The translations under genes and the position numbers were made by a program. From assembly GCA_017619495.1 (NCBI GenBank), contig JAFZSF010000026.1, positions 1 to 41,434 on the forward strand: 41,434 nucleotides of DNA, read 5' to 3'. Every line of letters begins with the position of its first letter. The stretch's first letter is position 1. This DNA comes from Clostridia bacterium (lineage in GTDB: Bacteria; Bacillota; Clostridia; Christensenellales; UBA1242). Below the pieces are notes generated by a model, which was given only the letters and a program-made list of their open reading frames with translations, searched no databases and was not told the DNA's origin. Positions 8,804 through 41,434 of this stretch are shown in pieces.

Positions 8804-9130
8804 ATGAAAAGTATCGCCAAGGAACGCATCAACGCTGATTTGTACCGCGCGTTGTCTACCATTTTAATGACCAAAGTTAACCACCCAGCGTTACGCGGTG
8901 CCACGATTTTGCGTACTGAGTTAAGCGCTGACGGCAGCGTCTGTGACATTTTTGTAACTGACCATTTAAATGAATTCCGTCAGGCGACCGGTTTTTTCCG
9001 TACCGAGGCGGCAAAACTGGTCAATCTACGCCGTATGCCGCGCTTGGTGTTTATTCAAGATAAAGGACAAGCTAATGCTGACCGCGTGAATGAATTATTA
9101 GCACAAATTGCAAGAGGTGATCAAAAATGA
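8804..9130 (+). CDS. rbfA: 30S ribosome-binding factor A
   Basis: A 108-residue single KH-like domain protein that assists late 30S maturation around the 16S 5' end. Recognisable parts are the N-terminal RINADLYRALSTIL helix, TELSADGSVCDIFV and the closing GQANADRVNELLAQI, which corresponds to the family motif ending in D-R-V/I-x-x-L-L. ATG 8804, 1 nt after the infB stop, is preferred over the longer GTG-initiated frame that runs inside infB; AAGGAG at 8785-8790 is at the far end of usable spacing. The stop overlaps the start of nrnA (ATGA). Confidence 0.9.
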   Translation: MKSIAKERINADLYRALSTILMTKVNHPALRGATILRTELSADGSVCDIFVTDHLNEFRQATGFFRTEAAKLVNLRRMPRLVFIQDKGQANADRVNELLAQIARGDQK

Positions 9131-10104
9131 CAAAATTACAAGCAGAAGTTGAAAATATTAAAAAGTTAATTAATCAGTCGCAAAATATTGCCGTAGTGGG
9201 GCATCAGAACCCTGATGGCGACTGTATTGGTTGCTGTGTTGCGATGTCCGAATGGTTGGTTAGTAAGGGTAAAACTATTTCAATTTTTGCCGACGGCGAT
9301 ATTCCGGAAAAGTTTTTTTACATGCCTAAGGCGCGAGAGTTCAACCAACATAGCGCCATTGAACATTTTGATTTGTTAATTGTTTTGGATTTGAGTGATG
9401 TAGATCGTTTGGGGGTGTGGAATAGTTTAACTGCTAAGTCTGACAAAATTATTGTCATTGACCACCATATTAAACCAGCTTTCAATCAAGCGGATATTTT
9501 AATTGATTTGCCACAATACGCCAGTTGCGGTGAAATTATTTATGATTTATTTGAATTGTTAAAAGTCAAAATTACTTTTGAAATTGCTACGGCGTTGTAT
9601 ACTTGTATTACTTGTGATACGGGTTGCTTTTTGTTTTCTAATACAACGGCTAATACCCACCGTGTGGCGGAAGCCTTAATGGCGAAACATAAAATTGATA
9701 TTGAAGCCATTAATTTTAAAAATTTCCGCGCTTATGATCGTCGTAATATCCCTGTGGTAACTTATGTCTTAAAAAATATGAAATTTGAATTTGGTGGTCG
9801 TTTATCAATTTCGGTTTTACCATACAAGTTTGTTAAGAAATGGAATTTGAATTATGAATCGCGTCACGGCTTATTTAAGTATGCTACCGATGCCAATGGT
9901 GTCATATGTAGTATTTTTATTACAGAATTATCCAAGGGCGAATTCAATGTTTCTTTGCGTAGTTTAGGCACAATTGATGTCGCTAAGATTGCACAAAAGT
10001 TAAATGGTGGTGGACACCGCAACGCCAGTGGGGCCACTTATCACGGTTCCTTAAAAGATTTGAAACAAATTCTGGTGTCAGAATTTGCGCAGGTGATTGA
10101 CTAA
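9127..10104 (+). CDS. nrnA: DHH-family phosphoesterase, NrnA-like oligoribonuclease/pAp phosphatase
   Basis: A 325-residue two-domain DHH/DHHA1 protein. Metal ligands are visible in HQNPDGD (residues 26-32), LDLSD, and D112-H113-H114. The DHHA1 nucleotide-binding loop GGGHRNASGA is near 294-303. NrnA enzymes degrade 2-5-mer RNAs from the end and hydrolyse 3'-phosphoadenosine 5'-phosphate to AMP. The gene overlaps rbfA by 4 nt and precedes truB, the usual Bacillota order rbfA-nrnA-truB, which supports the assignment. Confidence 0.9.
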   Translation: MTKLQAEVENIKKLINQSQNIAVVGHQNPDGDCIGCCVAMSEWLVSKGKTISIFADGDIPEKFFYMPKAREFNQHSAIEHFDLLIVLDLSDVDRLGVWNSLTAKSDKIIVIDHHIKPAFNQADILIDLPQYASCGEIIYDLFELLKVKITFEIATALYTCITCDTGCFLFSNTTANTHRVAEALMAKHKIDIEAINFKNFRAYDRRNIPVVTYVLKNMKFEFGGRLSISVLPYKFVKKWNLNYESRHGLFKYATDANGVICSIFITELSKGEFNVSLRSLGTIDVAKIAQKLNGGGHRNASGATYHGSLKDLKQILVSEFAQVID

Positions 10105-10105
10105 A

Positions 10106-10816
10106 TTGGACGGCGTAATTAACCTTTGTAAACCGCGTGGCATGTCGTCTTTTCGTGCTTTATCCATTGTAAAGCGTCGTTTACAATTAAAGAAGGTCGG
10201 ACACCTGGGTACATTGGATCCGGCTGCATGTGGGGTATTGGTATTATTGTGTGGACGCGCAACGAAACTGACCAATCAATTACACGCGTCAACCAAAACC
10301 TATCGTACGCTGTTAATTTGGGGTACGGAAACTGATACTTTGGACAGTGAAGGACAAATTGTCGCTACTAGTACGGTGATTCCCAGTTCTACGGCAATCA
10401 AAGCCGTGTTACCCAGTATGGTGGGCGAAATTCAAATTGGAGTGCCCAAGTTTAGCGCAGTGCACATTCAAGGTAAGCGGGCATATGAATTGGCACGGCA
10501 AGGAGTAGATTTTGTGCTACCGACTAAGACGGTAAAAATTAACCGTTTCACGATGTTAGATGCAACCCAGTGTGTGCGTGATTTAGCCGCGCTTGGTGAA
10601 CCTTTCGTGTTACCAGCCCATGCTAGTTATTTTGAAATTGAATGTCAGACCGGTACTTATATTCGCAGTCTTGCCAAGCTACTGGCTACACGGTTGGGAA
10701 CGGTAGCTACGGCGGCGGTAATTATTCGTACGCGGGTGGGCCAATTTGATTGGACGAATACATGTCGTATTGATAAAGTTAGTTTAGATGATTTAAAACC
10801 GATGGAGGATTTTTAA
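10106..10816 (+). CDS. truB: tRNA pseudouridine(55) synthase
   Basis: About 236 residues; makes pseudouridine 55 in the T loop of tRNAs. The catalytic motif is GHLGTLDPAACGVL, with the nucleophile Asp near residue 38. FSAVHIQGKRAYELARQG and CQTGTYIRSLAKLL match the family. The upstream TTG at 10097 is too close to AGGTGA (10091-10096), while the TTG at 10106 is 9 nt from it and begins the usual DGVINLCKP sequence, so I prefer 10106. The protein is shorter than E. coli TruB, lacking most of the C-terminal PUA part. A ribF gene does not follow. Confidence 0.93.
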   Translation: MDGVINLCKPRGMSSFRALSIVKRRLQLKKVGHLGTLDPAACGVLVLLCGRATKLTNQLHASTKTYRTLLIWGTETDTLDSEGQIVATSTVIPSSTAIKAVLPSMVGEIQIGVPKFSAVHIQGKRAYELARQGVDFVLPTKTVKINRFTMLDATQCVRDLAALGEPFVLPAHASYFEIECQTGTYIRSLAKLLATRLGTVATAAVIIRTRVGQFDWTNTCRIDKVSLDDLKPMEDF

Positions 10817-39583: not shown

Positions 39584-40024
39584 ATGGTAAGTAATATTGT
39601 TTCTTATATCTTAATTGGTGTCCTATTGTTAGGCATGGTTGTCTTAATGTTAGTGCAAGGACGCCGTCAAAAGAAAGCACAAGAAGATTATATGTCAATG
39701 TTAGATACATTGCGTCCAGGGGTAAAAGTTAAAATGGCATCTGGTTTGTTGGGACGCATTAAAGAAATCCGTGAAGAAGCACCAGGTTTTAAAACTATTA
39801 CTTTGCATATTGGTGAAAAGAATCCTGTTGAGATGACTTTTGTAATTGAGGCGGTACAGGGCATTGTTAACGAAGAGGCAATTAATAAAATTAACGCTGA
39901 AAAAGCAATAGCGAGTGTTGGAGCGGAAAAGGCAACCGAAGACAACAAGTCCGAAGTTAGTGCTACTGATGTGAAACTCGCCAAGGCTGCTTCCAAAAAG
40001 CAAACAGTAAATAAAAACAAGTAA
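39584..40024 (+). CDS. yajC: Preprotein translocase subunit YajC
   Basis: 146 residues. A single N-terminal membrane span (about 3-25, ends VLMLVQGRRQKKAQEDY) is followed by the YajC core LRPGVKVKMASGLLGRIKEI, which fits the family GDxVxTxGGxxGxI motif loosely. The last 45 residues are a charged Ala/Lys/Glu tail. YajC associates with SecDF in the Sec translocon. tgt-yajC adjacency is the classic arrangement, but here each has a separate promoter and secD does not follow. The 3' end overlaps the opposing YkvI-like gene by 62 nt. Confidence 0.88.
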   Translation: MVSNIVSYILIGVLLLGMVVLMLVQGRRQKKAQEDYMSMLDTLRPGVKVKMASGLLGRIKEIREEAPGFKTITLHIGEKNPVEMTFVIEAVQGIVNEEAINKINAEKAIASVGAEKATEDNKSEVSATDVKLAKAASKKQTVNKNK

Positions 40025-40934
40025 ATGCACCAATTAGTGGATAACCATGTTGAATAATGTGGGTAAAGCCGTAAAATGATGCTATGAATGCGATTAAACA
40101 GATACAAGCCGTTGTTACGCACGGCTTGTTTTTTGTTACGGGAAAAATCTTTTGTGTGCATTTTATAATGGCAAATAGTGCGGTGTATTGGCTGGTTAAG
40201 ATTGCTAGTAGTATAATGACTGTGGTAATAGGGGTTGGAACAGCACTGAGCAGTGGCATAGGATCAGTTTCAGTGTGAGTTGTCTTGATGGTGATTAAAA
40301 TTATGGTGAGTAAAAATGTAACAAAAATGGCAGTAATTAGTCCGGCCCAAAGTAGTGTGTTGCGCTTGTGCCGTTTTGCGTTAGCGATAATTAGCTCGGG
40401 AAACATAAAACAGTTTAATCCAGCGTACATGATTGCCCAATAAATTGTTGGCATAGTGTGTTTCCAATTTATGGCTTTTGTATCGATGAAATTAGCTAAT
40501 CGTGGTAGTGTGGTGGATGTGATTAGTATGATAATTGCAGCTACAATTATTGTGTTAAGACGCGTCAGTTTCTGTATGTCTGACAGGGCGAAAATTGCAC
40601 TACAGAGCAGTGAAATAAGGCAAATCCAGTGGTTGGTAATTTGTGTAATTCCAGCTGTCATGGCGGTATATAGTATTAAATATATTATAACAATACCTAT
40701 ATGTAGGGTTTTGCTTATTTTGGGGCTTGATTTATACACGGTTTGTTCTGTTCGGGGGTAAAATAAAAATATTTCCAATGTAATCATACCAAAAATCCCA
40801 ATTCCAACGATTGTTGCCGTTAGTCTAACGGGAATTTGCCAATTGCCAAAAAAAGTGATTATTTCGGCACCCGTGGCAAAACCTGCCCCGATAATTGAAC
40901 CCAAAAACAGCATTGTGCTTTCAAAAATCGCCAT
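39963..40934 (-). CDS. YkvI-like membrane transporter (APC superfamily)
   Basis: 323 residues and about ten hydrophobic segments. The N-terminal FLGSIIGAGFATGAEIITFF is the YkvI/APC first-helix motif (IGAGFASGxE). LNCFMFPELIIANAKRHKRN continues the family pattern. The substrate is unknown. Codons are A/C-rich (CTA, ATA, ACA, ATC), as in other minus-strand genes here, so the gene is probably native. The first ATG (40934) gives the correct distance to the motif but has no ribosome site; TATAAT overlaps the start. The 3' end overlaps yajC by 62 nt. Confidence 0.75.
   Translation of the reverse strand: MAIFESTMLFLGSIIGAGFATGAEIITFFGNWQIPVRLTATIVGIGIFGMITLEIFLFYPRTEQTVYKSSPKISKTLHIGIVIIYLILYTAMTAGITQITNHWICLISLLCSAIFALSDIQKLTRLNTIIVAAIIILITSTTLPRLANFIDTKAINWKHTMPTIYWAIMYAGLNCFMFPELIIANAKRHKRNTLLWAGLITAIFVTFLLTIILITIKTTHTETDPMPLLSAVPTPITTVIILLAILTSQYTALFAIIKCTQKIFPVTKNKPCVTTACICLIAFIASFYGFTHIIQHGYPLIGAFTCFYLLFAFWKQPWRVSHQ
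40104..40134 (+). terminator. Rho-independent terminator for yajC, inside the opposing gene
   Basis: A perfect 9-bp stem, ACAAGCCGT (40104-40112) with ACGGCTTGT (40121-40129), an 8-nt loop and a run of T up to 40134. It lies 80 nt past the yajC stop and inside the coding sequence of the minus-strand YkvI-like gene. Confidence 0.75.
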
Positions 40935-40940
40935 TATAGC

Positions 40941-41434
40941 TTAATTCCAAACTTGAATGTCCTCATAAGGTACATCTTCGGTATGCGGTCTGTATACAAC
41001 GCCATCTAAGAAAGCTGGATTTGTCATTGCTATTACTGAACCATAGAGCGGGAATGGCTCAGTCTTCACAATAAGTAGAACATAAGGATTTTCCTTTGAT
41101 GTATAAACGCTGTCGTCGGGATGGATAAGGTAATTGATCGAATCCTTGTATTCACCCTTAAAATCACTGACTTTACCGATATACTTATCCTGTGTGTATG
41201 CGGACGCATCAATCTCGGTATTATCATTATATGTTACACCATTCCATTCAATAGTGCAACGAAACAAACACCACATATTGCCGCCACCATTTGAAGGATT
41301 TTCAGGATTTTCAGGAACGCTCTGTGTTGCAGGCTCGGTTTGCTGAACAGGCGGAGTAGTCTGCTGCATAGGAGCTTCAGTCTGCAACGCAGGGGCTTCT
41401 GTTGCTCTCTGTGACTCAGTATTAGTATTTGCGA
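40941..41434 (-). CDS. Unrecognised secreted-type protein, 3' part, with foreign codon usage
   Basis: The frame is open at the window edge, so the 5' end is missing. What is seen is a Pro/Gln/Thr/Glu-rich low-complexity stretch of about 45 residues (MQQTTPPVQQTEPATQSVPE and similar), then NPENPSNGGGNMWCLFRCTI, then a compact domain with GVTYNDNTEIDASAYTQDKY and a VWN end. I do not recognise the domain. The layout resembles a linker plus an extracellular domain. Gln is mainly CAG (about 7 of 9), Lys mainly AAG and Arg partly AGA, unlike all other genes in the window. It is transcribed towards the YkvI-like gene, with a 6-nt gap. Confidence 0.6.
   Translation of the reverse strand, partial: ANTNTESQRATEAPALQTEAPMQQTTPPVQQTEPATQSVPENPENPSNGGGNMWCLFRCTIEWNGVTYNDNTEIDASAYTQDKYIGKVSDFKGEYKDSINYLIHPDDSVYTSKENPYVLLIVKTEPFPLYGSVIAMTNPAFLDGVVYRPHTEDVPYEDIQVWN

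Follow-up and report, generated by a model that had tools for sequence, protein, structure and literature searches.

The outer 500 nt of a Clostridia metagenome contig come from Ruminococcus flavefaciens-type DNA, very probably through a misjoin during assembly

The last 500 bases of contig C35 come from Ruminococcus flavefaciens or a close relative, another gut bacterium. Their attachment to this contig is, with little doubt, a chimera of metagenome assembly, which would make the foreign gene an ordinary artefact. The window, that is, the whole stretch of DNA analysed (41,434 nt), is the entire contig; the draft genome to which it belongs comprises 37 contigs totalling 836,835 bases, with a completeness of 90.46% and a contamination of 1.54%. 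A minus-strand ORF (41432..40941) is open at the contig end and is followed by a 6-nt gap (40935–40940) and by the ATG of a ykvI-like gene at 40934, in agreement with the coordinates of the original prediction. That prediction left the choice between a recent insertion and a misjoined contig end; the second is now the better supported, and the first is disfavoured. The features concerned are as follows:

40935..41434, minus strand: foreign 500 nt, R. flavefaciens-type DNA by blastn, very probably wrongly joined to the contig end
40941..41432, minus strand: ORF of 163 codons, truncated at the contig end; it corresponds to the C-terminal portion of a Ruminococcus protein of 327–328 aa
40914..40934, minus strand: 21-nt junction word, which recurs unchanged in the 3' flank of this gene in locus L019 (Ruminococcus-type) and forms the first seven ykvI codons here
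39963..40934, minus strand: native ykvI-like gene; its true upstream neighbour lies on contig C17
39584..40024, plus strand: native yajC (PF02699, E 3.6e-12), the conserved neighbour that anchors ykvI to the lineage

A pattern scan of an 84,980-species genome collection, which detects close relatives only, returned five loci, all titled Ruminococcus, whose products are related to the last 119 residues of the terminal ORF. Amino acid identity was 95–97% in three of them, the R. flavefaciens XPD3002 contig and two uncultured Ruminococcus, and 58 and 56% in R. flavefaciens 007c and a Ruminococcus sp. A sixth relative, L019, with 97% identity, came from a scan of viral contigs; its record carries no host name, and we call it Ruminococcus-type because its gene cluster equals that of XPD3002. 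At the DNA level, blastn aligned the window from position 41426 inwards with L019 (94.5% over 513 nt, 41426 to 40914, minus strand), with XPD3002 (L015; 94.0% over 503 nt) and with L014 (93.8% over 487 nt), while the outermost 8 nt of the window matched none of these three. Locus L016, whose contig starts inside the gene, was 93.5% identical to the window segment over 444 nt, and L017 was 71.4% identical over 479 aligned columns; L018 gave no DNA match to the segment by blastn. In the relatives set, which has 98 genomes besides this one and includes nine from the same genus, the last 119 residues had no match at E ≤ 0.001, and the three matches at E 0.03–0.09 are at chance level for such a set. 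Phage and plasmid records contained no match to the terminal ORF at E 1e-5. The two sides of the join thus differ in source, the outer side being Ruminococcus-type and the native side being present in all nine same-genus genomes.

On that native side, the ykvI-like gene was found in 9/9 same-genus genomes (33–54% identical), in each case beside yajC. The name YkvI stems from the original prediction; the gene has no Pfam match and, in NCBIfam, just a sub-threshold match to TIGR00145 (16.4 bits against a cut-off of 303.8). Directly upstream of ykvI and on the same strand, all nine genomes carry a 121-aa TPR-like gene, named from a weak PF22459 match below the cut-off (scanned in L022). The junction of the window, sought in these related genomes as had been proposed with the original prediction, was absent, since the TPR-like gene is what precedes ykvI in all nine. 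The next gene, on the other strand, encodes an SPFH/zinc-ribbon protein in all seven same-genus genomes whose contig extends further.

Contig C17 of the same assembly carries the true continuation of the ykvI side at its end, where the TPR-like and SPFH/zinc-ribbon genes occur in the conserved order. The TPR-like gene is cut there, codon 110 of 121 ending at base 2 of C17, and is 75% identical to that of a relative. The SPFH gene (413–1426) is 93% identical, and after it come three more genes, the same ones as in L022, L024 and L027. In the relatives, 17–29 nt (22 nt in five of nine) separate the codon at which C17 is cut from the ykvI start, and by this spacing the gap between the end of C17 and the ykvI gene of C35 would be about 21 nt. 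No Ruminococcus sequence was seen at the C17 end, which stops about 21 nt short of the ykvI site. The original prediction could locate no −35 element for ykvI, and this now has an explanation, because the true upstream DNA sits on or beside the end of C17. Given that the ykvI start of the relatives overlaps the TPR-like gene or lies just behind it, at the short distance from the cut codon noted above, ykvI probably has no promoter of its own in these genomes. A promoter scan of the C17 end gave one site, against 1.8 expected in shuffles.

The position of the join can be read from L019, which agrees with the window past the stop codon of the terminal ORF and over the next 27 bases, to 40914, with 100% identity over at least the last 88 nt (41001–40914). 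Beyond 40914, L019 enters its own strong hairpin (z −3.8), which by eye is also present in XPD3002 slightly further on, and the window enters ykvI. The original prediction had the break in the 6-nt gap; homology places it past the gap, at 40914, inside the start of ykvI. The word 40934–40914 matches the ykvI starts of L021, L022, L027 and L028 at 16–18 of 21 positions; for the remaining five same-genus genomes the figure is 12–14 of 21, although in three of these five the ykvI start is a projection from the protein alignment and not an ATG. Across these loci, 0.003% of positions match the word at 16 or more bases. Its inner 15-mer is found once in this genome; within the viral collection, the full 21-mer turns up in a single record, the contig of L019. 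The word thus appears to read well both as a native ykvI start and as a Ruminococcus 3' flank, and we infer its presence at the native ykvI start as well, its length on that side being judged from the relatives. A simple base-composition model, with a Ruminococcus partner assumed to have 3.5 Mb and 45% GC, gives about two chance 21-nt words per pair of genomes of these sizes, so the junction word needs no special cause.

Most likely, the misjoin arose in the assembly graph. The assembler would have walked from ykvI into the word of about 21 nt (40934–40914) that also lies just behind a gene of a co-occurring R. flavefaciens-like strain, would have followed the Ruminococcus branch to its end, 500 nt further on. 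The TPR-like gene and then the SPFH/zinc-ribbon gene, which truly continue the native path, would have been left as the end of C17. When 11 kb of the L019 locus served as query in two DNA searches against this genome, this contig end alone was recovered. The assembly has 74 contig ends, six of which (of C1, C3 and C9; GC 0.0) were taken as masked and left out; among the 68 readable ends, the window's own was alone in matching the six Ruminococcus-type loci. Since six loci make a small reference set, further chimeras may be present among the contig ends. Exact dovetails between contig ends point to no single overlap length or k (141, 28, 28, 19, 16 and 15 nt). Those between the left ends of C2 and C31 (141 nt), and between C18 right and C34 left and C13 left and C31 right (28 nt each), are likely to be joins or repeats that the assembler left. 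At positions 1–19, the window overlaps the left end of C32 in an exact dovetail of 19 nt, which may mark the true neighbour or just a repeat.

In L014, L015 and L019, the full-length Ruminococcus protein has 327–328 residues and is encoded directly after a sigma factor of 194–196 aa, of the ECF type, which carries PF08281 and PF04542 (Pfam, scanned in L014). The cut ORF itself has no Pfam match, and the full-length protein matched no Pfam family (two copies, L014 and L015) and no NCBIfam family (one copy, L014). Gene order, together with a hydrophobic stretch read by eye, suggests that it is a membrane-anchored, anti-sigma-like protein. About 2.4 kb upstream of this pair, a second sigma-factor-like gene (201 aa) is followed by one for a 440-aa protein (L019 2518–4438, L015 2517–4437), in which a hydrophobic stretch and a low-complexity linker were read by eye; the arrangement is therefore repeated in these two loci. 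Also near the first pair are relaxase-like and serine-recombinase-like ORFs, named by eye, at 8922–10199 and 11861–13429 in L015 and at 8884–10044 and 11876–13516 in L019. Given these neighbours, the pair may travel with a mobile element.

It is this possibly mobile neighbourhood, seen in L019 and L015, that lends some plausibility to a recent horizontal transfer, in which a Ruminococcus fragment entered the genome of this strain between the TPR-like gene and ykvI and the contig happens to end inside the insert. The foreign part is flanked by ykvI on one side and by the contig end on the far side, and the insert could begin in the approximately 21 nt by which C17 falls short of the ykvI site. 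If the insertion were real, foreign DNA would be expected beyond C17 as well, and the C17 end has no Ruminococcus sequence, although the same short gap means that this absence alone is not decisive. Further observations speak against transfer. The window leaves the Ruminococcus locus between the stop codon and the hairpin, where no element border is seen, and the word at the junction suits a ykvI start. By DNA, nothing else of the L019 locus was detected in the genome, and the relaxase-like protein was not found in it by a protein search run without a positive control. All nine same-genus loci lack the junction, and a shared junction would be expected unless the transfer were confined to the species or strain. 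We therefore consider such an insertion very unlikely. A variant, in which this genome of about 1 Mb very recently acquired a fragment of the sigma-factor-linked gene of R. flavefaciens through recombination at a 21-bp stretch identical by chance, is given an equally low probability.

The original prediction of a break was based on codon usage, and its counts of CAG and AAG in the terminal gene are exact and unlikely to be due to chance. Compared with 33 own ORFs of at least 150 codons, mechanically chosen, the terminal ORF uses CAG for 7 of 9 Gln (94 of 457 in own ORFs; Fisher p 0.0005), AAG for 5 of 6 Lys (240 of 841; Fisher p 0.009) and AGA for 2 of 3 Arg (28 of 525; Fisher p 0.009). The break is real, as homology establishes, but its description as a sharp composition break was overstated: the GC of the outer 500 nt, 0.422, is ordinary among the 68 readable contig ends, which spread from 0.28 to 0.51, and native genes reach similar codon scores. 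Using a likelihood ratio of Ruminococcus against own codon usage, scored per codon, the terminal ORF reached 0.141 and the adjoining native ykvI gene 0.114; pieces of 163 codons from own genes (n=337) reached up to 0.189, and the lowest of 344 Ruminococcus pieces scored 0.002. Composition was consequently rejected as proof of foreign origin, because the native ykvI gene is nearly as Ruminococcus-like as the foreign ORF, and codon usage alone is insufficient to settle where the terminal ORF comes from. Besides ykvI, one gene among the 33 own ORFs also scores on the Ruminococcus side, a histidine-phosphatase gene (PF00300; 2231–2773, plus strand; 0.071 per codon). Such scores of native pieces are what would allow the terminal ORF to be a divergent gene that is native to this lineage and merely unusual in its codon usage, a reading that we find scarcely credible given the 93.8–94.5% nucleotide identity to Ruminococcus-type loci, the lack of any match at E ≤ 0.001 in 98 relatives and the presence of another gene at this place in 9/9 same-genus genomes.

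With an assembly chimera as the preferred explanation, the finding has no biological importance. The last 500 bases of the contig should not be assigned to this organism, nor should the terminal ORF be taken for a transferred gene. C35 and C17 are likely neighbours, the ykvI end of C35 adjoining base 1 of C17. A false join of this kind can be recognized without reads, through the displaced native neighbour at another contig end.

Set beside the pairs of sigma factor and anti-sigma-like genes in L014, L015 and L019, the cut ORF corresponds to the C-terminal part of the second gene, with 93.8–94.5% DNA identity. Unlike those loci, the window holds just 163 codons, and the sigma factor gene and the N-terminal part are missing. 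As for the join, de Bruijn assembly of metagenomes is described as linking genomes through shared k-mers, giving a mixed contig (Brief Bioinform 2019, PMC7299287). Like the chimeric contigs considered in that account, the one proposed here would have its join on a shared word, of 21 nt. What is said there of such contigs mainly concerns closely related species, together with sequencing errors, whereas the two sources joined here are unrelated and would share a short word, as by chance.
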